64,000 bases of DNA, from contig NZ_FOMZ01000006.1 in the NCBI RefSeq assembly GCF_900112765.1, forward strand, positions 235,435 through 299,434, read 5' to 3'. Origin of the DNA: Actinopolyspora alba. GTDB lineage: Bacteria > Actinomycetota > Actinomycetes > Mycobacteriales > Pseudonocardiaceae. The translations under genes were made by a program, and so were the position numbers. Shown one piece after another: positions 23,113 to 41,772 of this stretch (positions within the stretch are counted from its first letter, which is position 1; each line of letters opens with the position of its first letter). Below the pieces are notes generated by a model. That model worked only from the letters and a program-made list of their open reading frames with translations. It did no database searches and was not told where the DNA came from.

Positions 23113-24338
23113 GTGCCCCACTACGCGAACCCGGTCGTCAAAACCCCGGCGGGTGCCGTGCGCGGCGTCCGCGACGCCTCCGGCGAGTTCTACCGCGCCA
23201 TCCCTTACGCGGCAGCACCGATCGGCGCACGCCGTTTCGCACCGCCCGTTCCGCACCCGGGCTGGTCCGGCGTCCGCGACGGCACGCAGCCCCCGCCGAC
23301 AGCTCCCCAACCGGTCCGCGACTTCGGCGGGCTCGACATGACCCCCTACTTCGGGCCTGGCTGGGTCCGGGGCGAGGAATACCTGACCGTCGACGTCAGC
23401 ACGCCTGCGACCGACGACGGCAGGCGCCCCGTCATGGTCTTCGTGCACGGCGGCGGATTCGTCGCCGGCTCGAGCCGCGCCGCGCTCTACGACGGCGACG
23501 CGTTCGCCCGCGACGGCATCGTCCTCGTGACGGTGAACTACCGTCTCGGCATACCCGGTTTCCTCGACCTGGAAGGCGCCCCGGCCAACCGCGGGCTGCT
23601 CGATGTGCTCGCCGCGCTCGGCTGGATACGCGCCACAGTCGCGACGTTCGGCGGTGACCCGGACAACGTCACGATCTTCGGCCAGTCCGCGGGCGCCACA
23701 CTCGTCGGAGCGCTACTCGCGACGCCGGAGGCCAAGGGCCTGTTCCGGCGGGCGATCATCCAGAGCGGCAGCGGCACCTTCACCCCGGAACAGGCGCGAC
23801 GGGTCACCACCACGGTCGCCGCCACGCTGGGCGTCGAACCAACGGCCGAAGCATTTGCCGCGATCCCGGACGAGCGCTTCCTGGAGATAAGGAAGACGTG
23901 CTCTCCCTCGCCGCCAGGTTGTACGCGGCCCCGGAGACCGCGGTCGCCGCGCACCGCGCGGCACTGCCGAACGCGACACCGGGCGAGCTGCGCTCTGCGA
24001 TGCTCGGGGAGGCGCTGTTCGGAGCCGGCACGACCCGCATGGCGCAAGCCCACGCACGGATCTCGGGCGGCCGCACACACGTCTACTCGTTCGGGTATCG
24101 CTCGACGGCCCTGACCGGACGACTCGGCGCCACCCACACCGTCGAACTTCCCTTCGTCTTCGACACCGCCGACAAACCGTGGCTGCACGGTGACACGGGC
24201 CTGCTCGGCCCCGACCCCGCCCCAGCAGGCCTCGCGGACCGGGTGCACACCGCCTGGGTCGAGTTCGCCGGCACCGGGAACCCGGGATGGGCCGCGTACG
24301 ACCCGCGACAGCCCGTGGCGGAGCTTCTCGGAGGCTGA
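23113..24338 (+). pseudogene. Type-B carboxylesterase with internal deletion and frameshift
   Basis: The first part, from GTG 23113, is a normal carboxylesterase N-half: RAIPYAAAPIGARRFAPP, MVFVHGGGFVAGSS (oxyanion hole) and VTIFGQSAGATLVGALL (nucleophile serine). After IPDERFLEI at about 23890 the frame shifts and jumps to a late segment (EDVLSLAARLYAAPE) that continues to GATHTVELPFVFDTADKPWL, holding the catalytic histidine, and ends at 24338. Roughly 90 residues that normally carry the acidic triad residue are missing. The product cannot be a working esterase. It lies 25 bases after the MBL relic and was probably co-transcribed. Confidence 0.8.
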
Positions 24339-36485: not shown

Positions 36486-37790
36486 TCACCCCCGGTCAAT
36501 CCCACGGGCGCGCCGCGACTGCCGGAGCTGGCCGAGCGCGCCCACCACGATCACCAGCAACACCGGCACGTAGGCCAACCGGTAGGACGGGCCCGCCGCC
36601 AGTCCCTCGGTCATCCGCAGCACCCCGCCAACGGCGAGCTGGATCAGCACAGCGGCGGTGAAGCCACCCATGTTCGCGGTACCCACCGCCAGCCCCGACC
36701 GGTGTGCCGCGTTGACCGTTCTGGCCCCGTCGAAAGCCAGCATCGCCGCCCCACCACCGATTCCGATCAGCACCAGCAACACCGCCAACAACGCGGCGGG
36801 CAGCACGCCGGGCCAGCCGATCACGGTCAGCCACACCACGGCCAACAGCAACGACAACACCAGCACGAACCGCTCCCGACGTGCCGGCCGCCCCGCCACG
36901 AACTGCCCACACGCCCAAGCCCCCACCAGGAACCCCGCCACACACAGCAACACCCAGTTCCCCGCCGCCGCGGCACCGTAGCCCTGCGCCCGCATCAACC
37001 ACGGCGGCCCCCACAGCACCGTCACCGCCACGAACTGCCCCATCATCACGAAGTGCACCCAGAACGAGTGCCACGTGCCGGGCGTGGTCACCACAGCCCG
37101 CAGCGCCGCCCGCACCGGCTCGACCTCCCGAGCCGACGTCGGCCGGCCGACGGCATCACCGGACCCCACCACCTGGGGCCGGTCCCGCACCATCACCCAG
37201 GCCGACACCGCCAGCACCGCGGTCAACCCGGCCGCCCCCAGAAACGTGCCCAGCCACCCCAGCACACGCAGCGAGGTGGCGAGCGGAGCGGTGGCCGCCA
37301 ACTGGCCCACACCGCCGACCAACCCGGTCAGCGCCGCGATCCTTCCGAACCTCTCGGCCGGGAACCACCGCGCGGCCAGCCGCAGGACGTTGGTGAACAG
37401 GAACGCGTCACCGAGACCGATCAACGCACGTCCCGCCAACCCGCCCACCAGGGACGCGCTGACCGCGAACACCGCCGAGCCCACGGCCAACGCCAACGTG
37501 GCCCCGGTGATCAGTCGTCGCGGACCGATCCGGTCGGCCAGGACACCCGCCGGAATCTGCAACGCCAGGTAGATCCCCAGCTGCAGCGCCGAGAGAACGG
37601 ACAACGCGGCAGGACCGGCCGAGAACCGATCCAGCGCCGCATCGGCGGCCACCGCCAGGCTCGCCCGGTGAAACAGCGCCACGAAGTAACACGCCGCCGC
37701 CACCGACCACACGAGCCAGGCCCGTCGTGACGTCGCCGTCGGGACAGGCTCGGTGAGCGAGGATTCCGAAGTGCCGATCGTGACGCGCAC
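36486..37790 (-). CDS. MFS transporter, 12-helix
   Basis: 434 residues, about 12 membrane helices. Helix 1 (WLVWSVAAACYFVALFHRAS) with the FHR-S motif, ALQLGIYLALQIPAGVLADR then IGPRRLITG (motif A), and ALIGLGDAFLFTNVLRLAAR point to the anion/sugar-phosphate-like or NarK/NNP-like MFS group. Substrate unknown. GGAGG five bases before the GTG at 37790 makes this start better than the ATG at 37814, which lies inside the operator repeat. It is divergent from a GntR/FCD regulator, the classic arrangement of an organic-acid transporter controlled by its own regulator. Confidence 0.83.
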   Translation of the reverse strand: MRVTIGTSESSLTEPVPTATSRRAWLVWSVAAACYFVALFHRASLAVAADAALDRFSAGPAALSVLSALQLGIYLALQIPAGVLADRIGPRRLITGATLALAVGSAVFAVSASLVGGLAGRALIGLGDAFLFTNVLRLAARWFPAERFGRIAALTGLVGGVGQLAATAPLATSLRVLGWLGTFLGAAGLTAVLAVSAWVMVRDRPQVVGSGDAVGRPTSAREVEPVRAALRAVVTTPGTWHSFWVHFVMMGQFVAVTVLWGPPWLMRAQGYGAAAAGNWVLLCVAGFLVGAWACGQFVAGRPARRERFVLVLSLLLAVVWLTVIGWPGVLPAALLAVLLVLIGIGGGAAMLAFDGARTVNAAHRSGLAVGTANMGGFTAAVLIQLAVGGVLRMTEGLAAGPSYRLAYVPVLLVIVVGALGQLRQSRRARGIDRG

Positions 37791-37803
37791 ACCCACCTCC
37801 AAA

Positions 37804-37826
37804 CTTGTATGCATCTTAGATACAAG
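37804..37826. promoter_or_regulatory. Inverted-repeat operator between divergent MFS and GntR genes
   Basis: CTTGTAT (37804-37810) and its exact complement ATACAAG (37820-37826) are separated by 9 bases. TTGTAT-n-ATACAA repeats are typical binding sites of FCD-type GntR regulators. It sits upstream of both start codons (MFS 37790, GntR 37850), so it could give autoregulation and transporter control. Confidence 0.7.
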
Positions 37827-37849
37827 CCGGGTGGAAGTAGAATGACACC

Positions 37850-38557
37850 GTGTCGAACACAACACCCTCGGAGACGGCCCCGCCCACCTCCGGCGACCGG
37901 CAGCGGCAACCCGCCACGGACCGCGCCTACCGGCACGTCAGAGCAGGACTCCTGGACGGCAGCCACCCAGACGGACATCTGCTGTCCGAAGGGGAGATCG
38001 CCCGAACACTGGGCATGTCCCGCACCCCCGTGCGGGAAGCCTTCCTACGGCTGCAGAGCGAGGGATTCCTGCGGCTGTACCCCAAGCGGGGCGCCCTGGT
38101 CGTACCGATCACCCCGGCCGAAGCACATTCACTGCTGGAAGCCCGTCTCGCCCTGGAAAGCTTCGCGATCGACAAACTCGCCGCCCTCGGCGAGCAACAC
38201 CTCGTCGCGGTCGGACGACGACTGCTCGACCACCCCGCCTGCGACCCCGGTGAACTCTCCGACTCCGAGATGCACGAGGCCGACCGCGACTTCCACGCAC
38301 AGCTGGTCACCGCCGCCGACAGCCCCGTGGTCACCGACCTCTACAGCGCACTCCGCGATCGCCAACTGCGCATCACATCCACCGCCCGCACCCACGAATC
38401 ATCCCGGCGCGCGGCAGTCACCGAGCAGCACAACAGCCTGGCCACCGCGCTGCACCACGGGGACACCTCACTGGCCAAACGCAGACTGCGCGAGCACCTG
38501 GCCCACACCATGCGCGCCATCGGCATCAGCGAAGACCTCCCGCACGTGGAGCCGTGA
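37850..38557 (+). CDS. GntR family regulator, FCD type
   Basis: 235 residues. Winged helix: AYRHVRAGLLDGSHPDGHLL, then EGEIARTLGMSRTPVREAFL, RLQSEGFLRLYPKRGALVVP. The FCD domain follows: LLEARLALESFAIDKLAA, DRDFHAQLVTAADSP with the metal histidine, and HNSLATALHHGDTSLAKRRL. It probably binds an organic acid and represses the divergent MFS transporter and itself through the palindrome at 37804-37826. GTG start at 37850; no separate ribosome site is evident, so the message may be nearly leaderless. Confidence 0.88.
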   Translation: MSNTTPSETAPPTSGDRQRQPATDRAYRHVRAGLLDGSHPDGHLLSEGEIARTLGMSRTPVREAFLRLQSEGFLRLYPKRGALVVPITPAEAHSLLEARLALESFAIDKLAALGEQHLVAVGRRLLDHPACDPGELSDSEMHEADRDFHAQLVTAADSPVVTDLYSALRDRQLRITSTARTHESSRRAAVTEQHNSLATALHHGDTSLAKRRLREHLAHTMRAIGISEDLPHVEP

Positions 38558-38861: not shown

Positions 38862-39839
38862 ATGCGGACGACAAAAACGAAGATCAGATTTCGGGCACTC
38901 GCGACCCTGGTCGCGGTGTTGTCATTGCTGGCGATACCGTTCACGGCGAAAACCGCCCGAGCGGCAACGATCGAAGAAGTGATTAATTTCGGCAGCAATC
39001 CGGGAAATCTGCGGATGTATCGCTATGCCCCCGACGGACTGGCCGCGGACCGCCCACTGGTGGTGGCCATGCACGGATGCACCCAGAACGCCACGGACTA
39101 CGGCACCCGGAGCGGTTGGGTGGAAACGGCAGAAAAGCACCGTTTCGCACTGCTGCTGCCGGAGCAGTCGAGCACCAACAACTTCAACCACTGCTTCAAC
39201 TGGTTCCAGGGAGCAGACACGACCCGAGGCTCCGGCGAGGCCGAATCCATCGCTCAAATGCGCAGGCACATGCTCGACAGTGTCGGCAGCGATCCGGGCA
39301 AGGTCTACGCCACCGGGTTGTCGGCGGGTGGGGCGATGACCGCTGCGATGCTCGCGGCCTACCCGGAACAGTACGAGGCGGGAGGCGTGGTCGCCGGTCT
39401 GCCGTACGGGTGCGCCACCTCGTTACTCGACGCCTACACCTGCATGTATCCGGGTAAGAACGACAGTCCCGAGTCGTGGGGCGATCTCGTGCGAGCGGCG
39501 AGTTCGCACTCCGGTCCCTGGCCCGGACTGGACGTCTGGCACGGCGATGCTGACTACACCGTGGCCGTGGCCAATCAACGCGAACTGATCGAGCAGTGGG
39601 CCAACGTGCACGGTACCGACGCGATCGCCGACAGCAGCGGATCGATCGGCGGTTACCCCTACTCCACGTATGAAAACACCGCAGGGACTACCGTCGTGCG
39701 GAGCTACACCATCACCGGCATGAGCCACGGACAGCCGGTGGCCCCTTCCTCGGGATGCGGAGCCACCGCAAGCCACATGCTCGATGTAGGCGTGTGCGCG
39801 GCGAGCATGATGACCGAGAACTGGCAGCTCGCCGACTGA
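38862..39839 (+). CDS. Secreted esterase of the PHB depolymerase/CE1 family
   Basis: 325 residues. A basic start (RTTKTKIRFR), hydrophobic core and AKTARAATIEE cleavage region form a signal peptide. The alpha/beta hydrolase domain shows PLVVAMHGCTQNATDYGTRS (oxyanion hole), VYATGLSAGGAMTAAMLAAY (nucleophile serine), LDVWHGDADYTVAV (aspartate) and ITGMSHGQPVAP (histidine): a complete triad. Homologues hydrolyse polyhydroxybutyrate or feruloyl/acetyl esters of xylan. With the pectate lyase nearby a role in plant-polymer breakdown is plausible. The ATG at 38862 has GGGAAAGG upstream. It lies alone between the regulator and a convergent membrane operon. Confidence 0.88.
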   Translation: MRTTKTKIRFRALATLVAVLSLLAIPFTAKTARAATIEEVINFGSNPGNLRMYRYAPDGLAADRPLVVAMHGCTQNATDYGTRSGWVETAEKHRFALLLPEQSSTNNFNHCFNWFQGADTTRGSGEAESIAQMRRHMLDSVGSDPGKVYATGLSAGGAMTAAMLAAYPEQYEAGGVVAGLPYGCATSLLDAYTCMYPGKNDSPESWGDLVRAASSHSGPWPGLDVWHGDADYTVAVANQRELIEQWANVHGTDAIADSSGSIGGYPYSTYENTAGTTVVRSYTITGMSHGQPVAPSSGCGATASHMLDVGVCAASMMTENWQLAD

Positions 39840-40096: not shown

Positions 40097-41104
40097 TCAC
40101 CTCCCGTGACTGGCCTCATCCACGACGCGGCTCCTGGCCCGCAGGCTGGCCACCGTCACCACCACGAGAATCAGCACGATCACCGACAGCGAGACCGGAG
40201 TGGCGATCTCGGGAACGGCGGGCCAGATCCCGTGCGCCCAGTGCAGCATCAGCTTCACACCGATGAACGCCAGGATCAGCGCCAGTCCGTGGTTGAGATA
40301 CACCAGTTTACTCAGCACCGAACTCAGCACGAAATACAACGCCCGCAGCCCCAGCAGCGCGAACGCGTTGGTGGTGAACACCAGGTAGGGGTCCTCGGTG
40401 ATGCCGTACACGGCGGGCACGGAATCCACGGCGAAGACCACGTCGGTGGCGAACACCGCCACCACAACGACGGCCATCGGTGTCAACGCACGACGGCCCG
40501 CCTGCCGCACGGTCAGGCTCGCTCCGTGGTACTCCTCCGTGACGGGCATCAACCGGCGCAGCAACCGCACCGAACGCATCTGCGACACGTCGCGTTCGAC
40601 GGACTCACCGCCGAGCGCCTCACGCAGAATCTTCACCGCCGTCACGAACAGAATCGCCCCGAACACCAGAAAAGCCCAGGTTCCCGCCTGCAGCAGCGCG
40701 GCTCCCATCGCGATGAACACGCCCCGCAGCACCAGCGCTCCCACGATGCCGTACAGCAGCACACGTTGCACCAGTGCCGTGGGAACGGCGAAAGCGGTCA
40801 GCAGCAGCATGAACACGAAGAGGTTGTCCACCGACAGGGATTTCTCCACCACGAATCCGGCGAAGAACTCCAGGGCCTGATCGGTGCCGAACCACCACCA
40901 CAGTCCGAGTCCGAACACCAGCGGCAGCGCCAGGTAGAACACCGACCAGCCGACCGCCTCGCGCATCGCCACCTCGTGCGGGCGGTGCGTGACCGCGAAA
41001 TCGGCGATCAACAGAACCAGCAGCACGCCGATACTGATCGCCCACAACCACGGCGTGCCCACCGACTGCGGGGTCGCGGCGACCATCAGGGGGGTATCCG
41101 ACAT
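40097..41104 (-). CDS. terC: TerC family membrane protein (likely manganese exporter)
   Basis: 335 residues, about nine membrane helices. TerC motifs: FFAGFVVEKSLSVDNLFVFM near residue 85, FATDVVFAVDSVPAVYGITE in the middle and FVLSSVLSKLVYLNHGLALI LAFIGVKL near the end; the aspartates of SVDN and AVDS are the putative metal ligands. TerC/Alx proteins export manganese and support metalation of secreted proteins. ATG at 41104 with GGGAGG at six bases. A yybP-ykoY manganese riboswitch precedes it, which strongly supports a manganese role, and a small membrane protein is coupled downstream. Confidence 0.92.
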   Translation of the reverse strand: MSDTPLMVAATPQSVGTPWLWAISIGVLLVLLIADFAVTHRPHEVAMREAVGWSVFYLALPLVFGLGLWWWFGTDQALEFFAGFVVEKSLSVDNLFVFMLLLTAFAVPTALVQRVLLYGIVGALVLRGVFIAMGAALLQAGTWAFLVFGAILFVTAVKILREALGGESVERDVSQMRSVRLLRRLMPVTEEYHGASLTVRQAGRRALTPMAVVVVAVFATDVVFAVDSVPAVYGITEDPYLVFTTNAFALLGLRALYFVLSSVLSKLVYLNHGLALILAFIGVKLMLHWAHGIWPAVPEIATPVSLSVIVLILVVVTVASLRARSRVVDEASHGR

Positions 41105-41106
41105 TC

Positions 41107-41138
41107 GAGACCTCCCGAACAACGTCGTTCGAGGTCTC
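41107..41138 (-). promoter_or_regulatory. Ribosome-site sequestering hairpin (riboswitch expression platform)
   Basis: On the minus strand the 3' strand of the riboswitch (GAGACCTC, 41138-41131) is an exact complement of GAGGTCTC (41114-41107), which contains part of the terC ribosome site GGGAGG. GAAC/GTTC next to them also pair. The hairpin competes with riboswitch helix P1, so metal binding should free the ribosome site. Confidence 0.7.
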
Positions 41139-41225
41139 CTTCACCCCTGGGCGGGGCCGCTTCCCGGGGACACCGTGTTGATGTCCGTACTGACCGGGCC
41201 AACGCGAGGAAGTACTCCCCTCTCG
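41130..41225 (-). ncRNA. yybP-ykoY (manganese) riboswitch upstream of terC
   Basis: The 96-base leader begins GAGAGGGGAGTACTTC and ends GAAGGAGACCTCG on the minus strand. This is the class pattern: helix P1 (GAGG/CCTC), internal loop GGAGTA opposite GAGA, then helix P2 (CTTC/GAAG), matching the GGGGAGUA...AGACC signature. Inside, GGACATCAACACGGTGTCC forms the second arm holding the metal-contacting loop. The 5' end coincides with the start point predicted from the promoter at 41230-41260. Known members sense Mn2+ and turn on Mn exporters including TerC/MntP. Confidence 0.85.
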
Positions 41226-41229
41226 ACGG

Positions 41230-41260
41230 AGTATAGGAGATGATTCGTCCGTCCTGGCAA
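41230..41260 (-). promoter_or_regulatory. Promoter of the riboswitch-terC transcript
   Basis: Minus strand: TTGCCA (41260-41255) and TATACT (41235-41230) with a 19-base spacer, slightly long for sigma-70-type promoters. Transcription would begin about 41223, exactly at the 5' edge of the riboswitch. Confidence 0.6.
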
Positions 41261-41436: not shown

Positions 41437-41772
41437 TCAACCCCGCCGCTGTCGCCGCAGCAGCCACACGATCGTCGTTCCCACGACGACGAGGATCCCG
41501 GCGCTCACGGCCAATTCGCCGTACGGGACCGGGCTGATCGCGACCGGCCCTGCCGGCTCCGCCTCGCGCATGCGTTCTTCGGTCCAGTACTCGCTGGTGG
41601 TGTGCTCGCTGTTCCGCTCGGTGTGCCGCGGCTGGACGCGGTGCGAGATCGTTTCCCTGTTCTCATCGCCCGAGGCAAGGAACTCGGGAACCGTGAAGAG
41701 CGCCACGATCAGCGCGACTCCGACGACGGCGACCCCGGTAACCAGCCAGGTGGTACGTGCCCGTGCCCTCAT
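41437..41772 (-). CDS. Small membrane protein with two transmembrane helices
   Basis: 111 residues. Helix 1 is TTWLVTGVAVVGVALIVALF and helix 2 is GELAVSAGILVVVGTTIVWL, separated by a ~45-residue charged segment (ENRETISHRVQPRHTERNSE), and the C-terminus is RRQRRG. The ATG at 41772 is preceded by GGGGAGGAG. This may be a PDGLE/CbiN-like or sortase-anchored-like accessory protein, but no family is recognised. It lies upstream of the terC riboswitch promoter in the same direction, with 176 bases between. Confidence 0.6.
   Translation of the reverse strand: MRARARTTWLVTGVAVVGVALIVALFTVPEFLASGDENRETISHRVQPRHTERNSEHTTSEYWTEERMREAEPAGPVAISPVPYGELAVSAGILVVVGTTIVWLLRRQRRG

Follow-up and report, generated by a model that had tools for sequence, protein, structure and literature searches.

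Organization of the terC locus

The window, i.e., the whole 64,000-nucleotide stretch of DNA that was analyzed, carries on its minus strand a terC/alx gene (40097–41104). The encoded protein of 335 aa matches the Pfam family PF03741 (E-value 1.3e-44) as well as the NCBIfam model TIGR03718 (R_switched_Alx; 356 bits at a cut-off of 246), whose name reflects that a riboswitch is frequently present upstream of such genes. The start codon of terC (ATG, 41104–41102) is preceded at a distance of 6 nt by the Shine-Dalgarno sequence GGGAGG (41116–41111, minus strand). Read 5′ to 3′ on the minus strand, the upstream region contains the hexamer TATACT (41235–41230), which reads as a −10 box, followed by a leader running up to the start codon. 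Leaders from the same genus exhibit this box as TATACT in nine of ten cases and as TACAAT in the remaining one. A −35-like TTGCCA is located at 41260–41255 on the same strand, with a spacer of 19 nt to TATACT that is on the long side, and transcription presumably starts downstream of TATACT. Within the leader, GGGGAGTA is found at 41220–41213 and GAGACC at 41138–41133 (minus strand). An earlier sequence-only reading of this DNA had named the promoter and the motifs of the leader, and a check of the sequence found them at their places.

The leader of terC is preceded by an open frame of 111 aa without Pfam family (41437–41772, minus strand). On the other side, a PHB-depolymerase-type esterase gene (38862–39839, plus strand) is convergent with terC, and further along (36486–38557) a GntR/FCD regulator gene on the plus strand adjoins an MFS transporter gene of opposite orientation.

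Fold and conservation of the leader RNA

The leader DNA was present in 25 of the 61 genomes searched (the own genome counted), including all ten of the genus and three of the 24 from other families of the order. The RNAalifold consensus of these 25 leaders comprises P1 (GAGG/CCUC), L1 (GGAGUA/GAGA), P1.2 (CUUC/GAAG), P3 with a 7-nt bulge and P4. Together with covariation and a model built in this study (R1), it delimits a compact aptamer of the yybP-ykoY (Mn2+) type without P2 at 41131–41226 (minus strand, as all of its parts). The 5′ strand of the switch helix P1 (GAGG, 41219–41222) pairs with CCUC at 41134–41131, and CUUC of P1.2 (41209–41212) pairs with GAAG at 41142–41139. Between them lie the two sides of L1, GGAGUA (41213–41218) and GAGA (41135–41138). 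P3, which is supported by covariation over 85 sequences, encloses with its lower and upper parts (41158–41204) the bulge L3, UCAGUAC (41187–41193), in which A41191 corresponds to the adenosine that binds Mn2+ in solved structures. The P4 hairpin GCCCC/GGGGU (41143–41157) follows from the consensus fold and from covariation.

The sequence-only reading had described P1 and P2 helices. Both helices do exist, as P1 and the inner P1.2 of a single stem, but a true P2 is absent from the consensus of the 25 leaders. The gap between P1.2 and P3 amounts to 4 nt in the window element and to 3–13 nt over 85 elements, which leaves no four-way junction with P2. Likewise, the 3′ strand that had been assigned to P1 turned out to be correct for CCUC, whereas the preceding GAGA is the 3′ side of L1.

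Among the 25 leaders, 94.5% of the alignment cells at paired positions do pair and 16 of 29 pairs are altered on both sides. Five measures of pairing and covariation were reached by none of 500 shuffles and lay above all six slid versions. They again exceeded all 500 shuffles and six slid versions with 85 sequences, although this larger alignment, having been adjusted to the structure, is biased in its favor. In the latter set, 13 of the 16 pairs of P3 are altered on both sides, P1.2 shows changes from U-A to C-G, and P1 occurs as GAGG/CCUC (73 elements), AAGG/CCUU (nine), GGGG/CCCC, GAGG/CUUC and GAGG/CCUG (one each). Both sides of L1 as well as the L3 adenosine are kept in 85 of 85 elements, of which, to be sure, 34 had been chosen by a pattern containing these motifs. 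In the other 51 elements (23 from DNA similarity and 28 from R1), GGAGUA, GAGA and the L3 adenosine are present in all 51 and UCANNNC in 50, with the reservation that R1, the source of 28 of them, itself favors the GGAGUA, GAGA and L3 motifs. Two loci were excluded: L026, the second of two identical copies in genome G014, was left out of alignment A3, and L027 was short of the limit.

Relation to known yybP-ykoY RNAs

The alx leader of E. coli, like the leader of this study, exhibits the order P1-L1-P1.2-P3(L3)-P4 with GGAGUA/GAGA, precedes a TerC-family gene, has a P1 3′ strand able to form another hairpin and, according to our own reading of the alignment, offers no room for P2. L3 comprises 7 nt in both (UCAUUAC in alx, UCAGUAC here). 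The P4 of alx is, however, longer, and its second hairpin is separated from the alx start codon by about 65 nt, whereas the corresponding hairpin described below contains the Shine-Dalgarno sequence. Reporters of E. coli alx and mntP were found to be activated by Mn (PMC9603457).

The RNAs of L. lactis and X. oryzae, for which structures have been solved, share with the element L1, the invariant adenosine of L3, a P1 that serves as the switch helix and the GAGACC 3′ end (PMC6754395; PMC9190785). For L. lactis, the crystal structure shows an L3 (UCA41AU43UC) of the same place and length as here, with Mn2+ bound by N7 of A41; the X. oryzae counterpart is A48 (PMC6754395). Binding of Mn2+ by the L3 counterpart is likewise given in PMC9190785, which lists the sites. 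Unlike the element described here, these two RNAs are four-way junctions with P2. P2 is nevertheless not defining for the class, as it is lacking from alx in our own reading and as a three-way-junction member, the yybP-ykoY RNA of a pneumococcal ATPase gene, is covered in a review (PMC9495176). The S. pneumoniae mgtA riboswitch of that review, a three-way junction with transcription control of a Ca2+/Mn2+ ATPase, could be compared by its description only.

The same holds true for the leader of cg2157 (terC) from C. glutamicum, a member of the same phylum, for which a match to RF00080 of 49.13 bits in a 2013 Rfam copy and a transcript in RNAseq data are given (PMC3890552). As this leader was annotated as RF00080 and as actinobacterial yybP-ykoY RNAs are mentioned elsewhere (PMC8164766), the element belongs to an already known kind. 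An actinobacterial form without P2 was not described in the excerpts consulted (e.g., PMC11087558; PMC3766115; PMC13274385). Less noticed so far, it seems, are the frequency of the compact form within the class and the failure of the current library model to detect it.

Searches with RF00080 and with models built in this study

The sequence-only reading had named the lack of an RF00080 hit as a result that would refute its assignment, and no such hit was obtained: the model (Rfam release 15, cut-off 45 bits) matched neither the window, even at an E-value of up to 10, nor the own genome, and the loci of 11 hand-picked relatives yielded no match at an E-value of up to 0.1. Matches of the window to unrelated Rfam families, at the gathering cut-off and at an E-value of up to 10, were taken as chance. 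With the same library, the E. coli alx leader (L031, 8374–8498) was not reported at an E-value of up to 1 and mntP, through which RF00080 presumably matched the E. coli control genome, reached 41.6 bits and thus remained below the cut-off of 45. The absence of an RF00080 match is therefore an unfair test.

Model R1 was built from actinobacterial leaders only and R2 more broadly, both without alx. R1 matched the alx leader over its full length (40.4 bits, E-value 2.2e-7 in 101,560 bases) and R2 did so with 53.7 bits; the 100.4 bits of R1 for the window element refer to a sequence that is among its training rows. At four loci matched by RF00080 below its cut-off, R1 scored weaker than for alx (37.3, 29.1, 20.5 and 18.9 bits), and mntP, a P2-bearing form, was matched by neither R1 nor R2. 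Further matches of R1 or R2 at 23388, 9056 and 36573 of the window and at L130 (E-value 0.88) were taken as chance. With the consensus fold, the covariation and these matches to alx, the assignment to the yybP-ykoY class made by the sequence-only reading is borne out.

In the genome of 5.24 Mb, R2 yielded only two significant matches, and these lie upstream of its only two TerC genes. The second element (contig C28, 333083–333195, i.e., L129 1501–1613; 51.9 bits, E-value 1.5e-8) is located immediately upstream of the second TerC gene; the proteins of the two TerC genes share 50% identity. This second element possesses a P1 of its own, an L3 of UCAUCAC and a Shine-Dalgarno hairpin formed by CCUCCGGU and ACCGGAGG.

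An alternative hairpin at the ribosome binding site

The 3′ strand of P1, CCUC, is at the same time an anti-Shine-Dalgarno strand and thereby common to two mutually exclusive helices. As already noticed from the sequence, GAGACCTC (41138–41131) is exactly complementary to GAGGTCTC (41114–41107), which overlaps the ribosome site GGGAGG; both this pairing and P1 were confirmed in the sequence. Beyond a GG bulge, GAAC/GUUC lengthens the alternative (OFF) hairpin, which is formed by GAGACCUC-GAAC and GUUC-GG-GAGGUCUC (41107–41138, minus strand), has the 3′ side of L1 as its 5′ end and amounts to −15.9 kcal/mol when folded alone.

The coupling of the two strands extends to relatives. Over 35 strand types, drawn from 92 compact elements (92 of 96 kept, rows L028–L031 set aside), pairing of the strand with its own downstream region averaged −12.3 kcal/mol vs. 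−8.9 kcal/mol (SD 0.4) for permuted partners, a value reached in none of 10,000 permutations. With repeated strand types kept (88 unique elements) the effect is present in a diluted form (−14.3 vs. −10.8 kcal/mol). In a plain swap test on these 88 elements, 28% of the foreign partners pair at least equally well, and for the type of the window 45 of 87 do so; in many relatives the partner strand, too, has GAGG near the start codon. A strict count found an exact complement of at least 7 nt in only 16 of the 35 types, but bulged or G-U-containing hairpins, that of the window among them, escape this count. The translational-switch anatomy at a terC gene proposed by the sequence-only reading thus agrees with the TIGR03718 match, with the coupled alternative hairpin and with the elements at both TerC genes.

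In the predicted folds of an RNA ending at AUG, the probabilities of being unpaired rose for AGG of the Shine-Dalgarno sequence from 0.20, 0.06 and 0.04 in the free RNA to 0.98, 1.0 and 0.98 with the aptamer imposed. Hiding and exposure of the ribosome site had been expected from the sequence, and AGG behaved accordingly. GGG, however, changed from 0.55, 0.83 and 0.37 to 0.02–0.03, as it becomes part of a local hairpin of small size. When the RNA is extended further into the coding region, pairing is again predicted for most of the exposed site, even with the aptamer imposed. Because of this local hairpin and of the pairing with longer coding sequence, release of the Shine-Dalgarno sequence is incomplete on paper. 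When tertiary contacts are left out of account, folding favors the hidden state by 8.9–10.2 kcal/mol. For a single ion this would be a large gap, unless the order of folding plays a part, and the ON state must therefore presumably rely on docking, metal, folding order and ribosomes.

Proposed mechanism and alternative explanations

Taken together, the leader is very probably a compact yybP-ykoY-type Mn2+ riboswitch without P2, by which the translation of a TerC/Alx protein of metal homeostasis is turned on. The structure with its conservation, the two exclusive pairings, the gene and the relation to the E. coli alx leader are shown by this analysis, whereas Mn2+ as ligand, the docking of L1 with L3 and the direction of regulation are inferred. 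At high Mn2+, L1 and L3 would dock around the ion, with A41191 as one of its ligands, and P1 (GAGG/CCUC) would be held, leaving the core of the Shine-Dalgarno sequence free. At low Mn2+, P1 would open and CCUC, with the flanking GAGA and GAAC, would pair with the Shine-Dalgarno region and hide the site.

The same fold could also respond to another signal that is weightier in the cell, namely alkaline pH, alone or with Mn2+, or Ca2+. The closest validated match to R1 and R2 is alx, the reporter of which was activated 3.5-fold by pH 8.5 alone and highest by Mn and pH together (PMC9603457), and for the three-way-junction RNA of S. pneumoniae, binding of Ca2+ is reported to be tighter than that of Mn2+ (PMC9495176). 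On the other hand, the L1 and L3 positions of the metal site are kept, though they would be equally usable by Ca2+, and the literature ties TerC/Alx to Mn in both E. coli and B. subtilis. Such a different main signal appears unlikely, yet it is the most serious competitor of Mn2+ sensing. Transcription attenuation, in which the alternative hairpin would stop or pause transcription rather than hide the ribosome site, would fit with the antitermination of other members such as L. lactis (PMC6754395) and with the strength of the hairpin. The latter is, however, followed by GA and ATG instead of a U run, for which reason it was rejected as a terminator; it contains the Shine-Dalgarno sequence, and the GAGG of the partner strand near the start codon in many relatives likewise speaks against attenuation. 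This makes attenuation quite improbable, while Rho-dependent coupling at the leader could still occur. That the region is a mere conserved promoter with a leader hairpin, resembling yybP-ykoY by chance and sensing no ligand, would agree with the lack of an Rfam family and with the fold energy of the single leader sequence, which is not unusual (z-score −0.55; 51 of 200 shuffles fold equally well), but is hardly credible in view of covariation beyond all 500 shuffles, the match to the held-out alx leader and the elements at both TerC genes of the genome.

A Mn2+-responsive translational switch at both genes would provide a testable account of how this Actinopolyspora strain tunes its two TerC proteins to manganese.

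Distribution and downstream genes

In large genome searches, R1 matched at least 33 of the 396 genomes sampled from the phylum and R2 at least 247 of the 394 sampled from the class. In what is apparently the same sample of the class, RF00080 attained an E-value of up to 0.001 in at least six of 394 genomes and its cut-off in none. These counts are lower bounds, as the filters were strict and few candidates were scored per genome. They suggest that alx-type Mn riboswitches go undetected in large numbers with a current RNA library. If this gap is real, actinomycete Mn regulons could be listed and tested.

A TerC gene was found downstream of the element at 19 of the 30 R1 loci examined (out of 36 R1 matches, the own locus included), at 41 of 43 pattern loci, several of which are the same places as loci from DNA similarity, and at 21 of 23 newly examined R2 loci. 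Among the 11 R1 loci without TerC, six look like loci of P-type cation ATPases (L047 and L050 according to Pfam, four by eye). At L055 (1501–1591) the element is located upstream of a gene for a membrane peptidase of family M50 that also has a match to CBS, at L060 the downstream gene is ambiguous, and at L054 the contig ends downstream of the element. The remaining two, L037 and L038, belong with a further locus, L118, to three genomes of one genus (g89), in which the element precedes a protein of approximately 290 aa that looks similar by eye in all three and at L038 matched no Pfam or NCBIfam family; no TerC is present there among the frames of at least 180 aa within approximately 4.7–5 kb.

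We lean slightly toward a wider generalization: throughout the Actinomycetes, TerC and some cation ATPases may usually be regulated by a compact subclass of yybP-ykoY riboswitches that form a three-way junction and whose P1 5′ strand is repeated in the Shine-Dalgarno region. This subclass may have been overlooked as the current Rfam model asks for a longer form, and may also control genes so far unlinked to Mn, such as the M50/CBS membrane protease and the protein of the one genus.

The two pattern loci without TerC downstream stem from Saccharothrix sp. ALI-22-I (L105), where the element may be a remnant, and from Aeromicrobium camelliae (L089). At two other loci, matches to the Cobalamin riboswitch were observed near the element on the other strand, one about 0.1 kb away and over the cut-off (L023, 1704–1816; 32.9 bits), the other about 0.9 kb away and under it (L018, 2468–2582; 29.1 bits).
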